From positions 1 through 28,901 of the IMG/VR virus record IMGVR_UViG_3300049491_000217: 28,901 nt of DNA; one strand, given 5' to 3'. Origin of the DNA: a virus. The position numbers and the translations under genes are program-made. The first letter of the stretch is position 1. Each line of letters begins with the position of its first letter. A model generated the notes under the pieces. That model saw only the letters and a program-made list of their open reading frames with translations. It made no database searches and had not been told where the DNA came from. This document shows, one piece after another, positions 565-20,315 of the stretch.

Positions 565-2906
565 TAACAACCTCGTCTAGTGGATATTGTATTCTTATCT
601 GTTTTCTTATTTGCGTCTGCTGTATTTTTAGCAGTCTTAGCCATTTCTTCAGCTAAAGAGGAATTATTAATAGCTGCCATAAATATGGATCGCCATTCTT
701 CTGGAGTGATTGCCTCTCCTCCAGCGCTAGTTCCTTTATGAGCTTCTCTCATAGCTTGTTCTAGTTCAAATCTGTCTTGCTCATTTACTTGGCCCATAGT
801 AGCGCTTAATAGGGCGTTTTGAGCTATTGCGTCTTGAGGATTTTCTGGAACATGCGTTACATTTTGACCTGTAGCAATGTCCGTACCTAATGCAAAACGT
901 TTATCGGCAATTTCACCTAATGCTTCTTTTGCGAAGTTTTCAGCTCTATTACCCTCTCCAACTTGTAAATAATTTTCAGATTCGCCTAATAATTTATTAA
1001 CGTCTATTGATGGGATTTTAATTCCCATAGCTGCTGCTTGCTTATCTAATTGATTAGCTACGCTTAATTCATCGGCTCCATAAGTAGGCATACTAAAAGG
1101 TCCGAATCCACTTCTTTCATTAGCTGCTTGGCCTAATGCAGAATCAGGGTTCATACCCATTAATTTTTGAAACTTTTTACCTAGCCAATCTCCGATATAA
1201 TATACGCCAGAAATTACTGCGGCTAATAAACCTAACTTACCTATAAACATAGCTATAGGCGTTAAAGTTTGTAATATTTTATCTTTAAAAGCTCCTAAAG
1301 CGCCTTGCGCTCCAGTAGATATTACAGTTTCTGTGCCAGCTCCTACTCCGCCTGTAGTAGGAATCATTGATTTTAGCCAACCGCTTAAGTTGTCTAACAT
1401 CTTTACGTAGATTGGATCAGAAGCTGAACCGCTAGGGCCTTGGCTTCCTCCTCCAAAAAATCTACCAACTACTGGAATTTTAGATAGTAATCCTTTACCA
1501 ATTCCTAGTACTTTGCTAACTCCGACTATGCCTATTAAAACTGCGGCTATACCAGCTAAACTTTTATACACTTTGCTTGTATTGTCGATCCATGATCTAG
1601 CCCAAGGTTTATTGGTAGCGCCGAAGAAAGAAAATATCTTATTAGTTATTCCGCCGACTGCGGTATCTAAAGTTTTAGCTGCTCTAGTTATATAGTCTAC
1701 TACTGTTGTTGCAAATGTTTTTACAACTATAGTAGCTCTTGAAATATTCTCTACTAAAGCTAATATGCCATTTTTTTCTAGCATGTCAGCAGTAGCTTCG
1801 CTAATTTTAGACATTCCTGATTCAGGATCAAAATTAGCTACTAATTCGTATATACCTTTTAGAAAGGCTCCAAATACTCTAAACTTTTCTATTAATGTGT
1901 CAGCTTTATTAGTAACGCCTTGAAAGGTCATCCCCAATCCAACTAAAATAGCTATTAATTTAGGTACTCCAAATCCTAGAGAACCTAACATACTTATAGC
2001 ATTTTTAGCTACAAATATTGCAGAATAAAATCCTACAACTGCTGTAGTAGCTGTTATAAAAGCTTTAGCTACGAATACTAATTCTTTACTCTTTTTAAAT
2101 TGAGAAAATAAATCAGATAAATTATTAAATAATTTTGTAGTAGCTTCTAAAGTAGGTTTTAGTGCCTCTCCTAAATATTGTCCAATCTCACTTCTTAAGA
2201 ATGTAAAAGATTGTTTTAAGTTAAATAGAACATCCGCTAAATCGGCATGTTCATCTTTAGCACTCTTAGCGACTTGTGTTATAATTCGCATTATGAGTGC
2301 ATTTTTTTGTTGTGCGGTTACAGCTCCAGCCATTACTCCACTATACTTATTTAGTACGGCTAGATAAGCTTTTAGGCCTACATCATTAGTTCTAATTAGA
2401 TTTAAAAACTCTAAATTACTTAGGTTTCCATCTTTAAGAGCTTGAGTAACTCGTCTGATACCTTCGCCAGATTCAATTCCTGCTCGTTTAGCAGCAACTC
2501 CAGCTCCAGTAATAATGGTAGCAGCATCTTGTACACTATTGGCTATACCAAGAGTTTTTAATGCTATGCCAGATTTCATAGCTTCTACTCGATCAATAGA
2601 AGCTTTAGTCATACCGTCTATAGCGTCAAAAAGCGCTCCTTTAGGTCCCAATACAGCTTCAAATTGATCCTGTATTCGGCCTAATTCAGCGCCTTTATCT
2701 AATGTGGAATTGAGTACACTTAATTGCTTCTGCAAAATTCCAACAAATGCAGTAGTGCTGAACATGATCCTATTAAATTGGACCATATCCATTCCAGTTT
2801 TCTTAGCAGCGTCACCAGTTCCTCTTAGCTGTTTATTAACATCACTAAGTTTCTTACTGGCGGCATCTACTACATTAACTATAATATCTAATGTACTCTT
2901 TGCCAT
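564..2906 (-). CDS. Tail tape measure protein
   Basis: This 780-residue protein should set tail length, fill the tube lumen and be ejected into the host with the DNA. The N-terminal ~280 residues are long amphipathic helices in the usual tape-measure style. Hydrophobic, potentially membrane-spanning segments follow near residues 275-330, 445-465 and 555-580. The last ~150 residues are polar and end in a Lys/Thr/Asn-rich tail. The order tube, chaperone, tape measure, hub is the standard one for long-tailed phages. The start ATG overlaps the TAA of the chaperone's -1 frame (TAATG), with AAGGAAG as ribosome site, so its translation is probably coupled to the frameshift product. It is short for a large myophage, which suggests a moderate tail length. 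Confidence 0.9.
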   Translation of the reverse strand: MAKSTLDIIVNVVDAASKKLSDVNKQLRGTGDAAKKTGMDMVQFNRIMFSTTAFVGILQKQLSVLNSTLDKGAELGRIQDQFEAVLGPKGALFDAIDGMTKASIDRVEAMKSGIALKTLGIANSVQDAATIITGAGVAAKRAGIESGEGIRRVTQALKDGNLSNLEFLNLIRTNDVGLKAYLAVLNKYSGVMAGAVTAQQKNALIMRIITQVAKSAKDEHADLADVLFNLKQSFTFLRSEIGQYLGEALKPTLEATTKLFNNLSDLFSQFKKSKELVFVAKAFITATTAVVGFYSAIFVAKNAISMLGSLGFGVPKLIAILVGLGMTFQGVTNKADTLIEKFRVFGAFLKGIYELVANFDPESGMSKISEATADMLEKNGILALVENISRATIVVKTFATTVVDYITRAAKTLDTAVGGITNKIFSFFGATNKPWARSWIDNTSKVYKSLAGIAAVLIGIVGVSKVLGIGKGLLSKIPVVGRFFGGGSQGPSGSASDPIYVKMLDNLSGWLKSMIPTTGGVGAGTETVISTGAQGALGAFKDKILQTLTPIAMFIGKLGLLAAVISGVYYIGDWLGKKFQKLMGMNPDSALGQAANERSGFGPFSMPTYGADELSVANQLDKQAAAMGIKIPSIDVNKLLGESENYLQVGEGNRAENFAKEALGEIADKRFALGTDIATGQNVTHVPENPQDAIAQNALLSATMGQVNEQDRFELEQAMREAHKGTSAGGEAITPEEWRSIFMAAINNSSLAEEMAKTAKNTADANKKTDKNTISTRRGC

Positions 2907-3094
2907 TATTTGCTGCTTCCTTTTTGAGCTGTATAGTCTTTATAAGCTTGTTTTATTTTCTTCCTATAAGACCAACGAAGATTATCTATCTCGCTTGGTT
3001 GCCACCTATACACCTGTCCAAAGAAGACATAATCTCCCAAGAGGTCCGTTTCGTGGCTTACGTATTCGTATTCATAGATCCCTTGGTAGGGTCG
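2906..3094 (-). CDS. C-terminal extension of the tail assembly chaperone, reached by -1 frameshift
   Basis: This open frame encodes 62 residues (starting RPYQGIYEYEY, with WQPSEIDNLRW in the middle, ending in TAQKGSSK). It stops at the TAA whose last base is the A of the tape-measure ATG. It contains no ATG, and upstream it is closed by TGA at 3107-3109, only a few bases before the slippery site, so it can hardly be translated alone. It fills exactly the gap between the chaperone stop (3058) and the tape measure. Its composition is protein-like (many Tyr, Trp, Lys and Glu). Reading 243 codons from 3822, slipping at T-TTT-TTC (3094-3100) and continuing here gives a 305-residue fusion. This matches the G/GT arrangement known in most long-tailed phages. 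Confidence 0.85.
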   Translation of the reverse strand, partial: RPYQGIYEYEYVSHETDLLGDYVFFGQVYRWQPSEIDNLRWSYRKKIKQAYKDYTAQKGSSK

Positions 3095-3822
3095 AAAAAA
3101 GATGGTTCAAACAAATTAAGCTTTGCGGTAAAGTCTTTACCACATTCGCTACAATTAGCCTCGATATTAGTGTCGATAGAACCGTCAAGTTTGACATCTT
3201 TAATTTTATCTTGTAAAAACATTATATCTTTTACTGAAATATTATCTACATCAGCGAATGATACTGGACTTTTAGGTCCAATTCGTTTTAAAGAAGTAGC
3301 AATCATAGTAGTAATAAGACTTTCTGGTTTTTTAGATGAAGTCATTTTAATGACATCAAACAAGTCTTTAAGATATAGAGGTTTTAATTCTACTTCTACG
3401 TCAGCTTTTGGAAGCTTAACTACTTTAGCTTTTGTCATGTCTTCTACAGACATATATTCTACTTCTAAAGTATCTAAATCTAATCTTAGATTTTTATTTA
3501 GATGGTTACAGTGAGAACAATAAGCTTCATGATAAAATCGTGGGCCGTAAGTATTCTCTCGTATTTTAATCAAAATAGTTTCAATATCAGATGCTGGCAA
3601 TTTCCATACAAGTTCTGATATTTTACCTTGCCATTTAAGTCCTTGTTCAGTCTGTAATGATAAAATCATATCCTCAAGAATTTTTGGAATATGACCAATA
3701 TTGTTGACCACAAGTTCTACGTTAACAAGATAATTTTGTTGCTTACCTCTTAATTCGTCTACTTCGACGTAATTAAATAAGTCCGCTCCATCTAGCAAGC
3801 CGTTAGGCAATTTCAGTAACAT
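3058..3822 (-). CDS. Tail assembly chaperone, T4 gp26-like, zero-frame product
   Basis: The 254-residue protein opens with MLLKLPNGLLDGADL and carries two CxxC pairs, C102/C105 (CSHC) and C224/C227 (CSEC). These could together form one zinc site. The overall look resembles the T4 gp26-type baseplate/tail assembly family that lies between tube and tape-measure genes in many myophages. I infer a role as tape-measure chaperone from position and from the slippery heptamer T-TTT-TTC near the 3' end (codons 241-243). The zero-frame product ends 11 residues after the slip, and the -1 product gains 62 residues. The start follows CCGAGGAAATAAATT, a reasonable ribosome site. The frameshift role is well supported; the gp26 kinship is less sure. 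Confidence 0.75.
   Translation of the reverse strand: MLLKLPNGLLDGADLFNYVEVDELRGKQQNYLVNVELVVNNIGHIPKILEDMILSLQTEQGLKWQGKISELVWKLPASDIETILIKIRENTYGPRFYHEAYCSHCNHLNKNLRLDLDTLEVEYMSVEDMTKAKVVKLPKADVEVELKPLYLKDLFDVIKMTSSKKPESLITTMIATSLKRIGPKSPVSFADVDNISVKDIMFLQDKIKDVKLDGSIDTNIEANCSECGKDFTAKLNLFEPSFFDPTKGSMNTNT
3094..3100 (-). promoter_or_regulatory. Programmed -1 frameshift site (T TTT TTC)
   Basis: On the minus strand the heptamer T TTT TTC sits in frame as X XXY YYZ, the second and third codons reading Phe-Phe. A -1 slip joins the chaperone to an open 62-codon frame with no start of its own. A small hairpin (CCCT-ACCA-AGGG) begins about 3-4 bases downstream. It is weak and close, so whether it stimulates slipping is uncertain. 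Confidence 0.82.
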
Positions 3823-3853
3823 AATTTATTTCCTCGGTAAATTTTGTTATTAT

Positions 3854-4459
3854 TTATAAAAACTTTTTAGCTACTATATTTCCAACAAAGCCAGAAATAC
3901 CCGTAAATTTAGTTTCACACCCTTCGTAACCAAGGGTAATACTCTCTATACTAACTCCATCGTCCGCCATAGCGTCAAAATCAGAAGCAGGTTTATAATC
4001 AATTGGAAAAGCGTTGTATAAAAAATATACTGCTTCTACTTGTCCAGCTCTATTACAATGTTCTATCTTTACAGTTTTTCTATATTTGGATGTTTCGTTA
4101 TTTAAATTTCCTATAGCAGAAGCTCCATTATCTGTAACTGCTCCTATAAGTTTTGAAGTTGGATCTGATTCTGTAGTGTTGCTGATTCCTGAATTACTTT
4201 GAATTACGTCAAAAATTCCATTAATCCACTTTACAAAACTAGTATCGTTCGTTAAACCTCTAGTTAAAGTAACAGGAGCATAACTTGCGCCTTCTACTAT
4301 TTTTCTAGGATTTAAATGATTACCGCCTTCTGGATAATCTTTTGTGTTTATTGTAACCTGTGGAGTAGAGCAAGTCATAAAGCCAAGCTTAGAAAAACCT
4401 TCTATACTCACAGTCCATCTGAATTTATCTAAAGGATCTCTTACGCCACTTCTAGCCAT
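3854..4459 (-). CDS. Tail tube protein paralogue 3
   Basis: A 201-residue protein beginning MARSGVRDPLDKFRWTV. It shares with its two right-hand neighbours an N-terminal block (MAR, a few residues, DPL-D/E-KFR-F/W) and a C-terminal block (IESITLGYEG, compare LTLTYEA and LTIAYED). A central TLTRGLTNDTSF motif, followed by W, matches the 'RRGTTDSKDF..W' and 'SRGLLAKES..W' segments of the others. All three belong to the phage tube fold related to T4 gp19. This copy lies farthest from the sheath and next to the chaperone, so it may be a specialised ring at the baseplate or terminator end rather than the main tube. That role is inference. Confidence 0.82.
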   Translation of the reverse strand: MARSGVRDPLDKFRWTVSIEGFSKLGFMTCSTPQVTINTKDYPEGGNHLNPRKIVEGASYAPVTLTRGLTNDTSFVKWINGIFDVIQSNSGISNTTESDPTSKLIGAVTDNGASAIGNLNNETSKYRKTVKIEHCNRAGQVEAVYFLYNAFPIDYKPASDFDAMADDGVSIESITLGYEGCETKFTGISGFVGNIVAKKFL

Positions 4460-4462
4460 ATG

Positions 4463-5134
4463 TTATGCCTTAAATAGACCTGAAAAAGCTCCAATAGCTC
4501 CTGCTGCTAGTGCTTTTTGAGATGCTATCTCTCCTTGTTGTGCTACATTTGAGATTGCTTCATTAATGCTGTCGCCTAAAACTTCTACGAAAGCTTCGTA
4601 AGTTAAAGTCAATTCTTCAATTAACTTTTCTTCAGATTTAGAATCTAAGTCGTTGCCGCCTTTGAATCCTATAGGAAACGCATTGAATACTACCCAGTGT
4701 TTAATAAATTTACCTTCTCTGTCTAATGCAGAAATAACTAAATCTCGTCTAAAATCTGGATCTTGTACTGGGACTAAACTAGCGCCTGCTAAAGCTTCGG
4801 TGAAAGTATTTATAGTACTTGCATCATTATTAACAGCTCTATACCAATTAAAAAAGTCTTTAGAATCTGTAGTTCCTCTCCTTAGAACTATAGGTTCATA
4901 TCTTACTAGACCTGGTTTTTTAATAAAATTTTGTCCGCTTGTATTTTCTCTATAAAGAATTTCAGAGACTGTGGCTTTAGGAACACTTACCTCACTAAAG
5001 CCTGCTCTGGTAAATAGCTCTGTATCAGCCGCATTAGAAAGTAAAGATGAGCTTATTTGCATCTCAATAGTTTCTAAAATAGTCACTTTAAATCTGAATT
5101 TATCTAAAGGGTCTGCAGATGCTACTCTAGCCAT
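4463..5134 (-). CDS. Tail tube protein paralogue 2
   Basis: A 223-residue protein beginning MARVASADPLDKFRFKV, the longest of three consecutive tube paralogues. Compared with paralogue 1 it has an extra stretch after the first strand (residues ~18-45) and a C-terminal extension rich in Ala and Gly after YEAFVEVLGDS. The conserved tube landmarks are present: RYEPIVLRRGTTDSKDFFNW in the middle and EELTLTYEAF near the end. It sits 12 bases downstream of paralogue 1 and 3 bases upstream of paralogue 3, with AAAGGA ahead of its ATG. The extensions suggest a specialised tube ring (initiator or adaptor), as T4 gp48/gp54 or Afp5 are for their tubes. The choice among these is not visible in the sequence. 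Confidence 0.83.
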   Translation of the reverse strand: MARVASADPLDKFRFKVTILETIEMQISSSLLSNAADTELFTRAGFSEVSVPKATVSEILYRENTSGQNFIKKPGLVRYEPIVLRRGTTDSKDFFNWYRAVNNDASTINTFTEALAGASLVPVQDPDFRRDLVISALDREGKFIKHWVVFNAFPIGFKGGNDLDSKSEEKLIEELTLTYEAFVEVLGDSINEAISNVAQQGEIASQKALAAGAIGAFSGLFKA

Positions 5135-5145
5135 TTATGTATCCT

Positions 5146-5703
5146 TTATATTTGTACTTCTTTAAAATCTTCGTAAGCGATTGTTAAAGATTGAATAGAT
5201 TTTTCACCATCTTCACTGGCATTTAAATCTGCTCCAGGAACAAAGTTAGTAGGAACACAATTATATAATTCCCATTTACGTGCAGCGGCTCCAGATCGAT
5301 CAAGCATAGTAATACTAATTGTTGCTCGATAGTCGTTGCTTCCTGTTGGTCCAGGGGAAGCTGCTGTTTGATTTCCTAAGCTATTAACTCCAGCGGTAGG
5401 AGAGTGTACTTTGCTCATCCAAAGATAAAAATCATCTTTAGAAGTGTCAGCAGTCGCACCAGCGATGCTTTCTTTTGCTAATAGTCCACGGCTCATTACA
5501 ATGTCTTCCATTGAATTGAGTCCTGCTGAAATCATATTAATGTCAGGATGGTCGCCTTCACGATACATAATCTTAGTAGTGGATCGTTTAGGCATTTGAA
5601 CGTCATGAAATCCTGCCCTTCGTTGAGTCAAGCCGCCTGGTAGTGTTAATACTACTTGGAAGCGAAACTTTTCTAAAGGATCATTATCTGCTGCTCTAGC
5701 CAT
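5146..5703 (-). CDS. Tail tube protein paralogue 1 (probable major tube)
   Basis: At 185 residues this is the shortest and most typical tube protein of the three, starting MARAADNDPLEKFRFQV and ending IQSLTIAYEDFKEVQI. T4 gp19 is of similar size (163). It directly follows the sheath gene, the usual place of the main tube subunit, and is separated from it by a hairpin terminator at 5741-5760. The ribosome site CGGAG lies 10 bases before the ATG. I call it the major tube by position and size; its paralogues lie immediately downstream. Confidence 0.85.
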   Translation of the reverse strand: MARAADNDPLEKFRFQVVLTLPGGLTQRRAGFHDVQMPKRSTTKIMYREGDHPDINMISAGLNSMEDIVMSRGLLAKESIAGATADTSKDDFYLWMSKVHSPTAGVNSLGNQTAASPGPTGSNDYRATISITMLDRSGAAARKWELYNCVPTNFVPGADLNASEDGEKSIQSLTIAYEDFKEVQI

Positions 5704-5740
5704 TTATAATATCTCCGATTAATTCTTTATAGTTAAAATA

Positions 5741-5760
5741 GGCGGCATATTTCAGCCGCC
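5741..5760 (-). terminator. Hairpin terminator between sheath and tube genes
   Basis: GGCGGC and GCCGCC form a perfect 6-bp GC stem with an 8-base loop, eight bases past the sheath stop. On the minus strand the stem is followed by TATTTTAAC, a short U-rich tract. It probably gives partial termination or protects the sheath mRNA 3' end. Confidence 0.6.
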
Positions 5761-5768
5761 ATTAATTA

Positions 5769-7580
5769 TTAGGCTACTGGTAGAGGAAATTCAAGAGCGA
5801 TTTCAATAAAGCGTACAGCTTTGTTTGGTCGTACTTGTATTCTTACTCGTAGTAAACCTTGGTCGAGTTCGTCTTGTGTAGGAGTTACGCTAATAACTTT
5901 AAATTGTTGATTCTCTGGTAATCCAGATGGAAACAAATAAATGTTGTTTCGTAAGAAACTTGTAATAGCGTTTGCAATTTTCTCTTGCGTAGCAGGAGAA
6001 AAGTTTTCCCACAAGAATCCACGTAATCCACGCTCAAGAGAACCTTTAATAAATTGTAAAGCTCTCATAACTTGAATTAATTGTTCGTCAGCAGTAACTG
6101 AAGAACCGCCAGCAGTATATCCACCAAATATAATATTACCTAATCCAGGGAATGAAGTAATACGGTTGATAAATGCTAATCGTAGAGGTGCAGCGTCTAG
6201 TCTTTCAGAAAGAATCAAAGATAAACCTTGAATTCCAGTGATTGATGCAAAACTTGTACCTGCTGGAGCATGTGATACTCCACCAATTGCTGTGTTAGCG
6301 TCAATGCGAGCCATAACACCTGCAACGTGTCCAGTAGGATCTATAGTAACTAATGATCCATCTGCCGCATTTGATTGTTGATTATTTACAATCAAATTGT
6401 TAAAATACCATCCTGCAACTCGTGAAGGATTGTTGATAACATAATCTTTGTAAGTAATCGCCGAAGGAATGTTAATTGTGATATTATCAGAAACAGCTAA
6501 AGCTGCTGCTGTATCAACAGTAATCGTAGAACCTGAAACTGCTGTAATTTTAGCTACTACAACTCCAGCTTTTTTAACGACCATACCAGGAGTAACTGCA
6601 GATAAATCTGCTGTACCTAAAGTAATTACTAAAGAAGATACTACTGTAATTGCTGTTGAAGCTAGTACTTCTACGTCTTTATTAGCTTTAGTAATCTCTT
6701 TTGGAGGAGCTAATAGAGAAAATGAGGTAGAAAGTGTTGCGCCAAATTCAGCTCGTACTGTTTCAGTATAATCAATTAAAGATGGATGAACTAAATAAGC
6801 GGTACTTAAAGGTAATCCAGGAATAGCTACTAAACCTAGTGTATCTTGAGTATCTAATGCTCGTAGTCCAGATCCTGCAGATGCGTCACCAATATAACTA
6901 TTAGCTGATGGGCGAGCACCTTGTGTCATTGTAGCAATCGTAAAGGTAGTAGCTCCACCACCACTGCCATCGGCAGCGTCTGTAGCTGGCCCACCCATAC
7001 TATTAGTTACTGTAACTACTGCTAGCGCTGCTGAAGCTGCAAAGTCTGCTAAACCGTCTAGGGCTGTTGCTGTTGCTGTTGCTACTTGAGCTGCTGTTGC
7101 GTTAGTTGCTATGTCAACTCTAACTCCAATTCGACCTGGGTTAGAAGCTGATGGATCAGTACCTAATGTATTGGTTCTATACCAAACATAGTATTGTTTT
7201 CTGTCATAAGCAGAATTTATTCGGAAATATTTTCCTCTTAAGCTATCACTTACATCTGCTACAGTAGTGATAGTACTGACTTCTGCAGTTCCTTGTCCAA
7301 CGTTAACAATTATAGCAGTGTTTCCATTGCCTGCATTGTTAAAGTAACCTTCTACAGCATAGTAGCCATCGTCAGCAATGCTATCTGCATTGCCAAATAA
7401 AGCTTCAAAATCTGCCATATTGGTAACTGAATTAGGAACGTTAACAGGAGCGCCAGCTAGTCCTGAACTGATCAAGAAAGCTGTAACGGACGTAGGAACG
7501 CCAGCTACTTGTACTGTGCCGATTGGTTGATCGAACACTTGTACTCTTTCTGGACCTATATTCGTATTTAATAGTGCCAT
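5769..7580 (-). CDS. Tail sheath protein
   Basis: A 603-residue contractile sheath subunit. The C-terminal part is diagnostic: INRITSFPGLGNIIFGGYT (471-489), the helix LIQVMRALQFIKGSLERGLR, then FLWENFSPATQEKIANAITSFL and a final strand LLRVRIQVRPNKAVRFIEI. The central core has VAIPG (251-255), GWYFNN (390-395), DPTGHVAGVMARID (414-427) and SHAPAGT (436-442), the phage version of the 'vAGvyArtD...kAPAG' sheath motif. Two segments look inserted into this core: residues ~101-225 (with ATAAQVATATATAL and a Gly/Thr-rich end) and ~303-374 (with PGMVVKKAGVVVAKITAVSG). GGGAG precedes the ATG. Subunits should wrap the tube made by the genes just downstream. Confidence 0.95.
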   Translation of the reverse strand: MALLNTNIGPERVQVFDQPIGTVQVAGVPTSVTAFLISSGLAGAPVNVPNSVTNMADFEALFGNADSIADDGYYAVEGYFNNAGNGNTAIIVNVGQGTAEVSTITTVADVSDSLRGKYFRINSAYDRKQYYVWYRTNTLGTDPSASNPGRIGVRVDIATNATAAQVATATATALDGLADFAASAALAVVTVTNSMGGPATDAADGSGGGATTFTIATMTQGARPSANSYIGDASAGSGLRALDTQDTLGLVAIPGLPLSTAYLVHPSLIDYTETVRAEFGATLSTSFSLLAPPKEITKANKDVEVLASTAITVVSSLVITLGTADLSAVTPGMVVKKAGVVVAKITAVSGSTITVDTAAALAVSDNITINIPSAITYKDYVINNPSRVAGWYFNNLIVNNQQSNAADGSLVTIDPTGHVAGVMARIDANTAIGGVSHAPAGTSFASITGIQGLSLILSERLDAAPLRLAFINRITSFPGLGNIIFGGYTAGGSSVTADEQLIQVMRALQFIKGSLERGLRGFLWENFSPATQEKIANAITSFLRNNIYLFPSGLPENQQFKVISVTPTQDELDQGLLRVRIQVRPNKAVRFIEIALEFPLPVA

Positions 7581-13541: not shown

Positions 13542-14747
13542 TTATAAAGTTACCTGTAATGTGTTACCAGCTCCGCCTGCGCCACCAGTAGCGCCTGAGT
13601 TGGCACTTCCTGCTGTTCCAGTTGAACCTAAAGATTCTGAGCCAGTAGACGAATTTACTTTTAATAATGTTATTCTGCCGCCTGAACCTCCAGTACCGCC
13701 AGTACCGCCAGTTCCAGTTCCGTTACCATTACCGCCATTGCCGCCTGTACCGCCGTTAGCTGATATAGCATTAGTAGCTGAAGATCCAGTTAAAGTATTA
13801 TATTGAATAAATACCCAACCGCCGCCTGCTCCACCTGCACCGCCTCCGCCGCCTAAATTTGTACCAGTAGAAGGAGATCCGCCGTTTCCGCCGTTTCCGC
13901 CGTTAGCTTGTATACAATTTGCTGGTGTCGAACCGCCACGACTTATAGTAGCAGCATGAATAATTACTACTCCGCCACCACTACTTCCTCCGCCTCCGCC
14001 GCCGCCACTATTAGTTCCGTTGCCGCCTCCTGCTGGCCCACCACCGCCGCCAGTTCCTCCAGTAATAACTGAAGCTCCTGATAGCATATTAGTTTCCCAC
14101 CTACGAATAGGTAAAGATGCTGTTATAGTTCCGCCAGCAGCAGAAGTTCCGCCTGCGCCGCCAGAGCCAGTTCCGCCAGCTCCAGATGCTCCTCCAGAAG
14201 ATCCATTAGCCAAAGCCGAAGTAGTTGCAACGTTTCCGTTTGCTCCTGCTCCAGTAGCTCCAGCTCTACCAGCTACTCCTGCTGGAGATCCGCCATAAGA
14301 ACGAGTTGTTAAAGTAGCTGCTGCTGTTCCTGCTGCCGTAGTAGCAGAGTTGCCGCCGTTATTACCATTCCATTGAATAGCTCCAGCGGCTGCTGCTGTA
14401 ATATCTAAAGTTCCTTTTACAAATACTCTAAAACCGTTAGTAGTTAAAGTACCTGTCCCACTTAAAGTGAGATTATTGTAATACATATCACGAGTAATAG
14501 TTGTATTTCCAGCAGAGATAGTAACATCTCCATCTGAACCACTACCAAAAGATTCTAATACTTCAGTAGCTGAAGGTCCTATTAGACCTCCGTATGATAA
14601 AGATGACCACGTAGAAGTGCCATCTCCAATTTTAAATAATGTAGAGTCAGTTTCATATCCAATTTCACCTTGAGCTAATACTGGATTTGCTGAAGACCAA
14701 TTTGCTGCTGTACTACGTCTAAGTTGTATTACTGTTGCTGCTGGCAT
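13542..14747 (-). CDS. Glycine-rich receptor-binding adhesin, copy 1
   Basis: A 401-residue paralogue of the next gene, with the same order. A fibre N-terminal module at residues 1-53 (VIQLRRSTAANW, NPVLAQGEIGYETDSTLFKIGDG) comes first. A beta-rich linker follows, with DMYYNNLTLSGTGTLTTNG and FVKGTLDI, then AIQWNGNNGG. A long Gly-Gly-x domain (~125-385) ends in SGGRITLLKV and a Gly/Ser tail. The start overlaps the fibre gene stop by one base. The linker is nearly identical to copy 2, while the Gly-rich loops differ, as expected if the loops touch the receptor. The antisense strand shows long Pro-rich open frames that merely mirror the Gly codons. Confidence 0.77.
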   Translation of the reverse strand: MPAATVIQLRRSTAANWSSANPVLAQGEIGYETDSTLFKIGDGTSTWSSLSYGGLIGPSATEVLESFGSGSDGDVTISAGNTTITRDMYYNNLTLSGTGTLTTNGFRVFVKGTLDITAAAAGAIQWNGNNGGNSATTAAGTAAATLTTRSYGGSPAGVAGRAGATGAGANGNVATTSALANGSSGGASGAGGTGSGGAGGTSAAGGTITASLPIRRWETNMLSGASVITGGTGGGGGPAGGGNGTNSGGGGGGGSSGGGVVIIHAATISRGGSTPANCIQANGGNGGNGGSPSTGTNLGGGGGAGGAGGGWVFIQYNTLTGSSATNAISANGGTGGNGGNGNGTGTGGTGGTGGSGGRITLLKVNSSTGSESLGSTGTAGSANSGATGGAGGAGNTLQVTL

Positions 14748-17203
14748 TATGGTGTTCCTCCATCAATTACTTGTGCTGCAGTATACACTGAATTAGCTGT
14801 ACCGCCATCTATATTTACTTGAGGATTTACCCAAGTTAGATTGCCTAAGCCATCATTAAATGGTACTGATCCTGAAGGTCCTTGAGCAGCAGGCCATTTT
14901 ACTTGATAAGAAGTAGTAACATCTGCAGCTTTATGTGTCATAGTTCCAGAGGTAGCTCCATCTAATTCTAACCCTTTTAAATGAGTTAAACCAGAGGAAT
15001 CTCTTTTTACTATAGTAGAAGCTGTGCTTAAATTTGTAGCTGCATTTGCTGCTAACTCTGCAGTGTGTATATTAGCTGCTGTAGAAGTTCCAACAGTATT
15101 AACTACTGTTGCACCTTGAGTTCCTGATACGTCTCCACTTAAAGAGCCTGAAAAATTTGTAGCAGTAGTAGCACTGGTTGCTGTTGTAGCATTTCCATTT
15201 AATGCCGCAGATATAGTTCCTGCAGAAAAATTTCCACTAGAATCTCTTTGTACTAAAGTACTAGGAGTGTTTGAACTAGTAGAAGCGTCTAATTTAGTTT
15301 TATCTGCAGCAGACATGAAGCCATTTACAGATCCTGTAGCTGCTGCGTGTAAAGTTCCAGAAGTCTGATTTCCATGTGCGTGTACGTGATCAGATAAAGC
15401 TACAGTTGTTGCAGCTCCTTGAAAATTAGAAGTCCCAATTTGTACTGGGGTCGCACTTGGAATATTATGTATATGATCAGATTTTGCAAAAGTAGCTGCT
15501 ACGCCGTCAGCATTAGATTGATCTGCTAATTGAGTAACAGCAGCTGCCGTAGGTATATTATGTACGTGATCTGCTCTAGCCAAATTAGCACTAGTACCAG
15601 TGGCATTAGATTGATTTGGTGTTTGAGTAGATGCAGTACCAGTTGTTATAGCATGTGAGTGATCAGATTTTGAAAAACTAGCTGCAACGCCATCGTCGTT
15701 AGTAGTAGTAGCACTTAAATTAGTAGTAGGTGCTGCTGTTGGAACGTTATGAGTATGATCAGCACGAGCTAGATTTGCGCTAACACCTTCTGCATTACTT
15801 TGGTTAGGAGTTTGTGTTGAAACTACTCCAGTAGCTAAATCATGAGTATGATCTGACCTACCAAAAGTCGCTGCTACTCCTTGAGTATTAGTACTATTTG
15901 CGTCTAATCCTACTGCTGTTGCAGTTGGTATATTATGTACGTGATCTGCTTTAGAAAAATTAGCAGAAACTCCAGCAGAGTTTGATTGATCAGGAGTTTG
16001 TGTTGATGCCGCAGAAGAAGTAATAGCATGAACGTGATCTGCTCTAGCATACTTTTCTAAAGTACCAGCACTTGCTGAACTTGTAGTAGTTTCTGGTTGA
16101 ATATCTGAAGTTAATCCCCAAACCAAATTTTGATTTAAGAATACTCTAGCATCATCTAGAACTGTTACTGAAGTTAAACTAGTAGTAAATATAGCTAAAG
16201 ATATTACATTAGGAGGTAAAGTAACTCCAGATTTTACTACTGCGTCAATATCAATATAAACATAACCATTCGTAGTCATAGAAGGTAATAATACACTTCC
16301 TGCTACAATGACTGTATGAGTTCCATTAAATTCTATTTTACCGCCAGTATAATTTACAGTTAATCCTGATCCAGGATAAGTAACTACAAATTCACTTGCG
16401 CCGCCAGTTACATTAACAGAAAAATTGCCAGAACCATCATCATTAACAGTAGTTCCAGCGCCATCTTTTAAAGATACGTCAGCAAATCTTTGAGTTCCAC
16501 TGTTAGCTTTTATGCTACGCAGACCTTTGTGAACGTGATCAGCTTTTGAAAAATTAACAGAAGTACCTTGACTATTGGAAGAACCAATATCAACTGGAAC
16601 GTCTGTAGGAATATTATGTATATGGTCAGCTCTAGCTAAATTAGCAGAGGAACCTGTTGCGTTAGATTGGTCAGCCGTTTGTGTACTTGGAGTGCCAGTA
16701 CTAATTGCATGTGAATGGTCACTTCTAGCTAAAGAATTAGCTGTACCAGTTGCATTAGTTGTTGTGGCGCTTAAGTTAGCTGCTGGAGCTGCAGTTGTTA
16801 ATGGATCTGCTCCAGAAGGTAGATGTCTAGAAGCATGAGCCTCTACTACTACTCCATTAATTTGAGTTACGAATATATTACCAGAACCGTCTCGTTTTAC
16901 GATAAAGTTCGCAGTATTTGCACTTGTGGCATTTTGAGTATCTGTGACAGACTGAGCTACTTCTGCAGAGGTTTTGCCTCCAACATACATAACTACAGCC
17001 GCTGCAGCACCAGGTCCAGTAGCTACTACATCGCCTGTTAAAGCTGTAATAAAACTAGCAGAACCGATAGGAGTTTCAACTCCAGCAGAGTCCAATATAT
17101 ACAAGACATTATCTGTCTTCATATATATTAGGGCATATCCAGCAGGTGGGACTGAAGGAGTAGTCGCCAACTCTGGAAATCTAAATGTACCTGGAAATGC
17201 CAT
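14747..17203 (-). CDS. Tail fibre with Asp-His-x-His repeats
   Basis: An 818-residue fibre protein. The N terminus (PPAGYALIYMKTDNVLYILD, residues 19-38) is the common phage-fibre start. Eleven Asp-His-x-His repeats follow, at Asp162, 193, 222, then 389, 420, 451, 482, 514, 545, 576 and 605, spaced 29-32 residues. The unit reads about TQTPNQSNAxGxSANLARADHVHNIPTA. A non-repeat beta domain (~230-370) splits the array. The C-terminal part has GFMSAADKTKLDA (628-640), common in fibres, then two IVKRDSSG-type segments. In T4 gp37, H-x-H motifs of the three chains hold iron ions along the needle, so metal-bound trimer needles are plausible here. Copy 1 of the adhesin genes follows immediately. Confidence 0.82.
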   Translation of the reverse strand: MAFPGTFRFPELATTPSVPPAGYALIYMKTDNVLYILDSAGVETPIGSASFITALTGDVVATGPGAAAAVVMYVGGKTSAEVAQSVTDTQNATSANTANFIVKRDGSGNIFVTQINGVVVEAHASRHLPSGADPLTTAAPAANLSATTTNATGTANSLARSDHSHAISTGTPSTQTADQSNATGSSANLARADHIHNIPTDVPVDIGSSNSQGTSVNFSKADHVHKGLRSIKANSGTQRFADVSLKDGAGTTVNDDGSGNFSVNVTGGASEFVVTYPGSGLTVNYTGGKIEFNGTHTVIVAGSVLLPSMTTNGYVYIDIDAVVKSGVTLPPNVISLAIFTTSLTSVTVLDDARVFLNQNLVWGLTSDIQPETTTSSASAGTLEKYARADHVHAITSSAASTQTPDQSNSAGVSANFSKADHVHNIPTATAVGLDANSTNTQGVAATFGRSDHTHDLATGVVSTQTPNQSNAEGVSANLARADHTHNVPTAAPTTNLSATTTNDDGVAASFSKSDHSHAITTGTASTQTPNQSNATGTSANLARADHVHNIPTAAAVTQLADQSNADGVAATFAKSDHIHNIPSATPVQIGTSNFQGAATTVALSDHVHAHGNQTSGTLHAAATGSVNGFMSAADKTKLDASTSSNTPSTLVQRDSSGNFSAGTISAALNGNATTATSATTATNFSGSLSGDVSGTQGATVVNTVGTSTAANIHTAELAANAATNLSTASTIVKRDSSGLTHLKGLELDGATSGTMTHKAADVTTSYQVKWPAAQGPSGSVPFNDGLGNLTWVNPQVNIDGGTANSVYTAAQVIDGGTP

Positions 17204-18995: not shown

Positions 18996-20315
18996 TTAAG
19001 CGCCAAGACCAAGGACGTTTTTCATTCTAGCAAGAGCTAGGCGATTGTAAAGATCGAAACCGCAGTACCATTTCATACGATATTGGTAAGCGTTTTCGTT
19101 TTCACGAGGTCCAACATACTCTAGTTTTAATCCAGCGTTGTTAGCAGAAGTGAAACCTACTACACCTTTGAATTCTCCCCAACATCCGCAATAGATAGAA
19201 GAACCATCAATGCGCTCTGCAGCAACAGCTACAGAAAGTGCAGGAAATAGTCCAACTGTATCTAGAGGTTGACGAGCCACTAGTTTGTTTTGTTCTGGGT
19301 CAAAGAATGAACCAGTGATTGTTACGTTAGCAGTGGTTGTACCAGCGCCAGAGGTAATTGGATAGCGATAAAGAACGCCATCTGATCCACGAAGTAACAA
19401 TTGAGTAGCTGTAGAAGCAGAAGCAGCAGTAAGAACTGCAGTGTCTGAATCTGTAATAGAAGCTACAGTAGTTGTAACTACGTTAACTGCGTCAGCTTTG
19501 CTAACGAAGTCGTTACGGAAAACAGGGATATCTTGGTAATAAAGCATAGGCTTCATATTTCCAAGGCCTTGTTGTTGGATCATGTAAGCATCTGTTCCAC
19601 CGCCAGTGTTTCTTAGAAGAACACGTAGAGTACGAATCTCACGAGAGTTCATCATAAGGAAATCTGGTTTACCAGCAGTAACTCGGTCGATTAAATCGTC
19701 GAGATCTTCTAGTGTGAATACACGGCCAGCAAGACCTGCACGAGCAGAACTTGGATCATCTTCAGTCAAACTTAGAGTTTGTGTAGATGCGCCAGCATTG
19801 TAAAATGGGTGGTTAACGTCAGCAGCATTACCTGTTTCTGCGTCAAGAATTGATGCCATACCGTTAAATTTGTCAGCAATACCGATTGGACCGTTATTAG
19901 CTTGAACAAGAGCGGATTGGCGACGAGCGTTGACGATTGCATTCATGTAAATACGAGCAATTTGTTTAGATTTAGAAGAAATCTGAACTTGTAATTGATC
20001 GTTAGATTCACTGAATTGATCTTCAATTTGGCCGTCGATGATAATATCAGCGATAATAGCTGATAGATTTACGTTAACTGAACTAAATGTTGCGCCAGCT
20101 TGAAACTTAGATTGATTTAAGTTTGTGCCTGGTGAAGCAAAGTCAGCAGAAGCTAGTGAAGCTTCTCGTGTGAAGGTATAAGCTAGACCTTCAAAAACTA
20201 CGAACGGAAGGTATCGAAACCATTCGTCCACAGAAATAATGTCAGCAATAATACCTTCAACAAGTAAATTGTTGGATAGTGCTGCTGCATCGCTTAGTGA
20301 AATAACTTGAGCCAT
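18996..20315 (-). CDS. Major capsid protein (HK97-like fold)
   Basis: A 439-residue protein that forms the shell lattice. It has the look of HK97-fold phage capsid proteins: an N-terminal helix (LSDAAALSNNLLVEGIIADI), then SVDEWFRYLPFVVFEGLAYTFTRE, the long-helix region IEDQFSESNDQLQVQISSKS and IARIYMNAIVNARR, and a later DFLMMNSREIRTLRVLLRN segment followed by KPMLYYQDIPVFRND, a classic capsid P-domain sequence. The ending WYCGFDLYNRLALARMKNV is also typical. No separate propeptide or cleavage site is evident. Scaffold lies upstream, a strong terminator downstream. The ribosome site sits in the loop of a small hairpin at 20314-20336. Confidence 0.93.
   Translation of the reverse strand: MAQVISLSDAAALSNNLLVEGIIADIISVDEWFRYLPFVVFEGLAYTFTREASLASADFASPGTNLNQSKFQAGATFSSVNVNLSAIIADIIIDGQIEDQFSESNDQLQVQISSKSKQIARIYMNAIVNARRQSALVQANNGPIGIADKFNGMASILDAETGNAADVNHPFYNAGASTQTLSLTEDDPSSARAGLAGRVFTLEDLDDLIDRVTAGKPDFLMMNSREIRTLRVLLRNTGGGTDAYMIQQQGLGNMKPMLYYQDIPVFRNDFVSKADAVNVVTTTVASITDSDTAVLTAASASTATQLLLRGSDGVLYRYPITSGAGTTTANVTITGSFFDPEQNKLVARQPLDTVGLFPALSVAVAAERIDGSSIYCGCWGEFKGVVGFTSANNAGLKLEYVGPRENENAYQYRMKWYCGFDLYNRLALARMKNVLGLGA

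Follow-up and report, generated by a model that had tools for sequence, protein, structure and literature searches.

A gp26-family tail assembly chaperone gene with a conserved slippery heptamer and a probable programmed -1 ribosomal frameshift in an uncultivated phage lineage

Introduction

In phage lambda, the tail chaperone gene G/GT gives rise to a short form, which coats the tape-measure protein, and a frameshifted long form, which uses an additional domain to recruit tail-tube subunits. That such frameshifts are conserved in tail chaperone genes was reportedly described by Xu, Hendrix and Duda in 2004, a study cited in PMC10885494 and PMC9024508. Here we focus on a gene of an uncultivated virus lineage, found in a stretch of 28,901 nucleotides (nt; 28.9 kb) that is positions 1-28,901 of the IMG/VR virus record IMGVR_UViG_3300049491_000217 and is called the window throughout. 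The gene lies on the minus strand at 3058-3822 and encodes a protein of 254 amino acids (aa) belonging to the gp26 (PF12322) family. Very probably it specifies a tail assembly chaperone with products of two lengths, the longer arising by programmed -1 ribosomal frameshifting. Frameshifted tail chaperones are already known, and the window adds a well-supported member in an uncultivated lineage, with comparative support that is unusually complete.

Other phages arrive at two chaperone lengths in different ways. For phage P2, a -1 frameshift joining E to E' is annotated (NC_001895). T4 instead carries two separate PF12322 genes: gp26, which ends in ...KEFFELL* and has no extension, and gp51, which has about 50 extra C-terminal residues. 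Separate short and long chaperone genes in some T4-like phages were reported by Vladimirov et al. (2022), as described in PMC10885494, and poly-T signals in T4-like chaperone genes are credited to the same study as cited in PMC12846349. In the Vandenendeviridae and Andersonviridae (Pseudomonas phage Adele), a conserved -1 poly-T slip, GTTTTT, occurs and the extension is routinely misannotated (PMC12846349).

The gene in the window shares features with each of these systems. As in lambda G/GT, it is placed directly upstream of the presumed tape-measure gene, has a heptamer near its 3' end, is followed by an extension with no ATG of its own, and is predicted to yield a short form and a rarer frameshifted long form. 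Unlike in lambda, its first domain is of the PF12322/gp26 type, contains two CxxC pairs and matches no solved chaperone in sequence, and its slip site is T TTT TTC followed by a conserved downstream stem. T4 gp26 belongs to the same Pfam family and also has a Phe-Phe near its end. However, where T4 uses two genes, the window has one gene and a putative frameshift; the gp26 plus gp51 solution was not encountered there, with a single PF12322 match in the window against two in T4. Like P2, the window has a C-terminal part, here putatively frameshifted, just upstream of the tape-measure gene and a W-x-P-S-E motif within it, although P2 E is a short first domain with no visible resemblance to gp26. 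In the comparison with P2, the window extension itself gave no match to PF06528. The Adele-type chaperone differs in its slip sequence, and it is likened to ours by its described features, not by homology.

The slip site and the overlapping frames

The slippery heptamer T TTT TTC lies at 3094-3100 on the minus strand. Its first T is the third base of codon 241, and TTT TTC are codons 242-243, read in the zero frame as Phe242-Phe243. The 0-frame stop, a TAA at 3058-3060 on the same strand, ends 36 nt past the heptamer. In the -1 frame after the heptamer, the translation continues as RPYQGIYEYEY...AQKGSSK* for 62 codons and a TAA (2906-3094, minus strand), with no ATG. This stretch would form the C-terminal part of the long form (TAC-NC, the 'T-like' domain). 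The final A of its TAA, at 2908-2906, is also the first base of the ATG that opens the following gene at 564-2906 (TAATG). The predicted fusion is thus 305 aa long (243+62).

An earlier note on this DNA, made from the letters alone, had described the heptamer as being in frame near the end of a 254-codon gene. It had also described the -1 frame as 62 ATG-less codons terminated by a TAA overlapping the next ATG, and the fusion as 305 residues long; the translation of the window agrees on all three points. The note misplaced the -1-frame stop upstream, which it put 12 bases before the slip: this is a TGA at 3109-3107, and 6 nt separate it from the heptamer. The extension does contain TTG and GTG codons, the first possible start being the TTG at codon 19. 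By itself, the heptamer is not a rare sequence (10 in the window against 13.9 expected). The argument that the slip site exceeds chance is therefore based on its conserved phase and on the conserved -1 protein, not on heptamer frequency.

Conservation across the clade

The comparative evidence for a programmed -1 frameshift at this site is very strong. Relatives sharing about 70% terminase identity were retrieved, and 6 of the 10 records searched contained the chaperone; a subsequent profile scan yielded 22 loci. Counts for the clade refer to the 13 distinct loci that reach the slip site, three near-identical contigs stopping within the extension. The heptamer is in phase in all 13 (TTTTTTC in 12, TTTTTTA in one). 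The base preceding TTTTTC is a T in 12 of 12 aligned members, even though the residue encoded by that codon varies between Ser, Asp, Gly and Thr. The 0-frame stop follows the heptamer at a distance of 18-36 nt, and six members have either 27 or 36 nt. At every locus long enough to show it, the -1 frame remains free of stops until approximately where the next gene starts. Relatives that keep the gene and lose the heptamer or the -1 frame were looked for, and none was found among the clade loci reaching the site.

Judging by the aligned sequences, purifying selection acts on the -1 frame beyond the 0-frame stop. In this region the pairwise ratio of nonsynonymous to synonymous differences (pN/pS) of the -1 frame is 0.19-0.41, and the differences at -1-frame codon positions 1, 2 and 3 number 214, 183 and 390. 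Conserved residues of the extension include H14, D17 and L18, which are encoded downstream of the 0-frame stop and upstream of the earliest codon that could serve as a start in the window.

Wider searches added nothing to the clade. A scan of genome contigs for clade relatives gave none, scans of viral contigs with a single protein (that of the window or of SP-15) gave nothing new, and tblastn of the extension alone against phages returned zero matches. One alignment (A1) was set aside as too diverse. The window and each of five related records, which may be fragments, have one PF12322 match, and no separate long copy was seen in any of the six.

A candidate stimulatory stem

The earlier note had found that a strong hairpin downstream of the slip site was not evident. 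Comparison across the clade shows otherwise: a candidate 10-bp stem starts after a 7-nt spacer (3087-3093, minus strand), with its 5' arm, CCAAGGGATC, at 3077-3086 and its 3' arm, GACCTCTTGG, at 3037-3046, beyond the 0-frame stop (both on the minus strand). Nine of the ten pairs form in the window, and the 30-nt loop holds the 0-frame stop.

The stem is present at 7-nt spacing in 12 aligned clade members. Over the 12 distinct sequences, 92.5% of cells are paired, as against 32-62% in registers with the partner arm displaced by 1-3 columns. RNAalifold recovers the stem unaided, and in a scan of all stems it is the only one of at least 7 bp kept in 90% of cells. One pair changes from A-U to G-C in three sequences, a double change that leaves the -1-frame protein unaltered (CAA/TTG to CAG/CTG); these three are not grouped together in the protein tree, the support of which is low. 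Codon choice in the arms is also unusual. In the 3' arm, which lies outside the 0 frame, CTC is used in 10/12 members against 2.6% in the genes of the window and 3.2% in the clade chaperone genes, and TTG or CTG in 11/12 against a usage of 8.5-16%. In the 5' arm, GGG is used in 11/12 against 2.4-9.4%. The binomial values for this bias are tiny, but they assume independence.

From its position and conservation, the stem may well stimulate frameshifting, and being conserved, it makes the stimulator directly testable. A more distant locus (L076) has GTCGGT...ACCGAC at about 5 nt in place of the stem. A scan of all conserved stems downstream gave no pseudoknot partner for the loop, and no Shine-Dalgarno-like stimulator upstream was seen by eye.

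Identity and fold of the protein

The 254-aa protein, which would be the short form (TAC-N, 'G-like'), matches PF12322 (T4_baseplate/gp26) with E=6.9e-9 and 36.1 bits, above the cut-off of 24.5, and also matches phrog_150. The PF12322 cut-off is passed in five relatives as well. A profile built from the clade matches the gp26-family proteins of SP-15 and jumbo phages with 99.5% probability, the alignment reaching as far as the terminal Phe-Phe that they share. Both CxxC pairs, C102/C105 and C224/C227, are invariant in the clade. In these respects the earlier note, which had pointed to the T4 gp26 family, to two CxxC pairs and to a T4 gene that does without the frameshift, was right.

The AlphaFold model of the 254-aa protein has a predicted local distance difference test score (pLDDT) of 86. 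Its best matches in BFVD are the SP-15 baseplate hub subunit (E 5e-15, template modelling score 0.74-0.77) and then other T4-like gp26 proteins. Among solved folds, the top one is the HK97 tail assembly chaperone 2ob9 (Z 5.1, root-mean-square deviation 4.7 over 89 residues, Foldseek E 1.9), a match which stands out, modestly, from unrelated chains. For the extension, a three-helix domain is predicted (pLDDT 83), and its W-x-P-S-E motif resembles the frameshifted E' part of P2 (hhalign probability 88% over 23 columns). A structure search with the extension model found nothing, and a PDB sequence search with either the 254-aa part or the extension found nothing credible.

A tail chaperone of the G/GT type is supported by the family match, the modest fold match, the likeness to P2 E' and the position before the tape-measure gene. 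The most fitting interpretation of the product is a tail assembly chaperone with a short form and a frameshifted long form.

The same arrangement in other gp26-family phages

Reading past the ends of PF12322 genes in public phages suggested that the window is not alone. An in-phase T TTT TTC followed by an open -1 extension was found in Atu_ph07, Phosso, Vibrio 2.275, PA5oct, Munch, GAP32, 121Q, RaK2, SCTP-2, XaC1, LR756511 and Bakedbeans, and an in-phase T TTT TTT with an open -1 extension in RAS14 and HTVC008M. The likeness to jumbo and marine myophages thus lies in the in-phase T TTT TTC/T at the conserved Phe-Phe end and the open -1 extension. Unlike the window, most jumbo phages have no visible tape-measure gene directly downstream, and the jumbo and marine extension sequences are only very weakly like that of the window. 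The profile link between the window extension and those of jumbo phages is too weak to claim (hhalign probability 7.5%), as is that between the jumbo extension and the C-terminus of T4 gp51. In most jumbo phages a GCTCTT/GCTTCT-like stretch occurs past the slip site (loci L009 and L035-L046). No shared stimulator is claimed for the jumbo phages, because strong downstream folding is not uniform among them.

A second group, made up of SP-15, LIS04, GXN1, LR756508, Mel-JY01, immuto, RM378 and S-SCSM1, has the extension open in the +1 (equivalently -2) frame immediately beyond that Phe-Phe or a Phe-rich end (gp26-family loci L002, L004, L005, L007, L008, L044, L045 and L055), with conservation that is clear in part of the set. 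In the SP-15 group, CCCGATT is shared directly past the Phe-Phe end. S-SCSM1 (L055) has T TTT TTC in phase at about 2170-2187, yet its extension is in the +1/-2 frame and is annotated as a separate baseplate hub assembly catalyst. In the Pseudomonas phage Cygsa01 (L057), the homologous extension (1790-1982) has no slippery heptamer and begins at an ATG that overlaps the stop of gp26 (TAATG); frameshifting was possibly lost there in favour of a separate gene.

On balance, we lean somewhat towards the view that frameshifting at a conserved Phe-Phe/poly-T site was the ancestral route to the long form in the gp26 (PF12322) family. The T4 gp26/gp51 pair would then be a derived exception, the eight phages of the second group would have switched to +1/-2, and the stem of the window lineage would be a previously undescribed stimulator. 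The family offers a natural comparison between two chaperone lengths made apparently by slippage (-1, or apparently +1/-2) and by the two genes of T4, and we judge the family-wide pattern, including the +1/-2 lineages, to be of more interest than the single case of the window. For annotation, the arrangement provides a clear rule for a large myophage gene family: to complete the chaperone, its end has to be sought in a second reading frame. In the public records examined the fusion is not annotated for PF12322 genes; the chaperone end is omitted or called a separate hypothetical protein, and several records annotate small separate open reading frames (ORFs) at the extension.

Proposed mechanism and alternatives

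Comparison brings out the slip site, the coding -1 frame, the stem and the gene order; we infer the occurrence and rate of frameshifting, its stimulation by the stem and the chaperone role. The majority of ribosomes would read through to the TAA at 3058 and produce the 254-aa short form. A minority, held up by the RNA stem 7 nt downstream, would move back by one base at T TTT TTC, and reading another 62 codons would give the 305-aa long form, which carries an additional small helical domain. If the two forms act as in lambda G/GT, the tape-measure protein would be coated by the short form, and tail-tube subunits would be recruited by the additional domain of the long form. The programmed -1 frameshift in a tail chaperone put forward in the earlier note gains support from the in-phase heptamer, the open -1 frame, purifying selection, distant jumbo and marine phages, and a modest chaperone-like fold match.

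Several observations weigh against this reading. Within the stem, two-sided covariation is limited to one pair, the A29-U64 pair is broken in half of the sequences, and two pairs are broken in one locus (L071). The 64-nt fold of the window is mildly more stable than shuffled sequences (z -0.93), and a longer stretch around the stem folds otherwise. The match to the chaperone fold is modest (see the Z and E values above), and the chaperone function is derived from family and position. Every clade record is either partial or of unknown completeness, which leaves some chance that a second chaperone gene lies elsewhere.

The 62-codon stretch might alternatively be a separate small gene that is expressed without any frameshift, using a non-ATG start of its own or translation coupled to the stop upstream. 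GTG and TTG codons are at hand within it, small separate ORFs are annotated there in several records, and in Cygsa01 the homologous part has an ATG start and no heptamer. In the window, however, the extension has no ATG, and the heptamer is kept in phase at every clade locus that reaches it. His14, Asp17 and Leu18 are conserved before any possible start (the TTG of codon 19) and outside the 0-frame ORF, a conservation which a separate gene fails to explain. We consider this reading very improbable.

Slippage of RNA polymerase on the T6 run, with mixed transcripts giving the -1 product, is just as hard to favour. An AT-rich gene with a run of six Ts, or of seven in some members, would suit it, but T runs this short seldom cause strong polymerase slippage. 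Moreover, the run invariably takes the X XXY YYZ arrangement, which suits tandem tRNA slippage, and a conserved RNA stem at 7-nt spacing suits ribosomes better than polymerase. Homopolymers being error-prone, and the slip site being one, a missing or extra T from sequencing or assembly could in principle have split a continuous gene. This explanation, which has next to no probability, is rejected by comparison across loci: the same split recurs in 13 distinct loci of the clade, which come from several metagenomes, and in numerous isolate genomes, and the clade 0-frame always ends 18-36 nt from the heptamer. A programmed ribosomal frameshift is the reading we retain.

The tail module and its surroundings

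The gene is part of a contractile-tail module on the minus strand, in which a sheath gene is followed by three gp19-type tail tube genes, the 254-aa gene and a 780-aa gene. The tail sheath gene (5769-7580; phrog_23, E=6.1e-15) marks the module as contractile. The tail tube genes, all of the gp19 family (PF06841), lie at 5146-5703 (third copy, E=5.8e-20), 4463-5134 (second copy, E=2.9e-27) and 3854-4459 (the copy nearest the chaperone, E=5.9e-23). They form a tandem triplicate at 3854-5703, with products of 185-223 aa, a triplication also found in the Vandenendeviridae (PMC12846349). The 780-aa gene (564-2906) is taken to encode the tape-measure protein, by its position and by synteny with the annotated tape-measure genes of LIS04 and immuto; its product has zero Pfam or PHROGs matches. 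The chaperone gene is thus placed between tail tube genes, recognised by Pfam, and a tape-measure gene, recognised by position and synteny only.

Outside this module, the major capsid protein (18996-20315) has its nearest phage relatives in Pseudomonas, Stenotrophomonas and Xanthomonas phages with genomes of 56-64 kb (Ab18, A1432 and the like), at 25-31% identity. This kinship of the capsid, set against the T4-like tail module (3058-7580), makes for a mosaic virion. At 14747-17203 there is a protein of 818 aa, the sole match of which is phrog_5231 (unknown function), and it adjoins two proteins with N-termini matching tail fibre/spike PHROGs.

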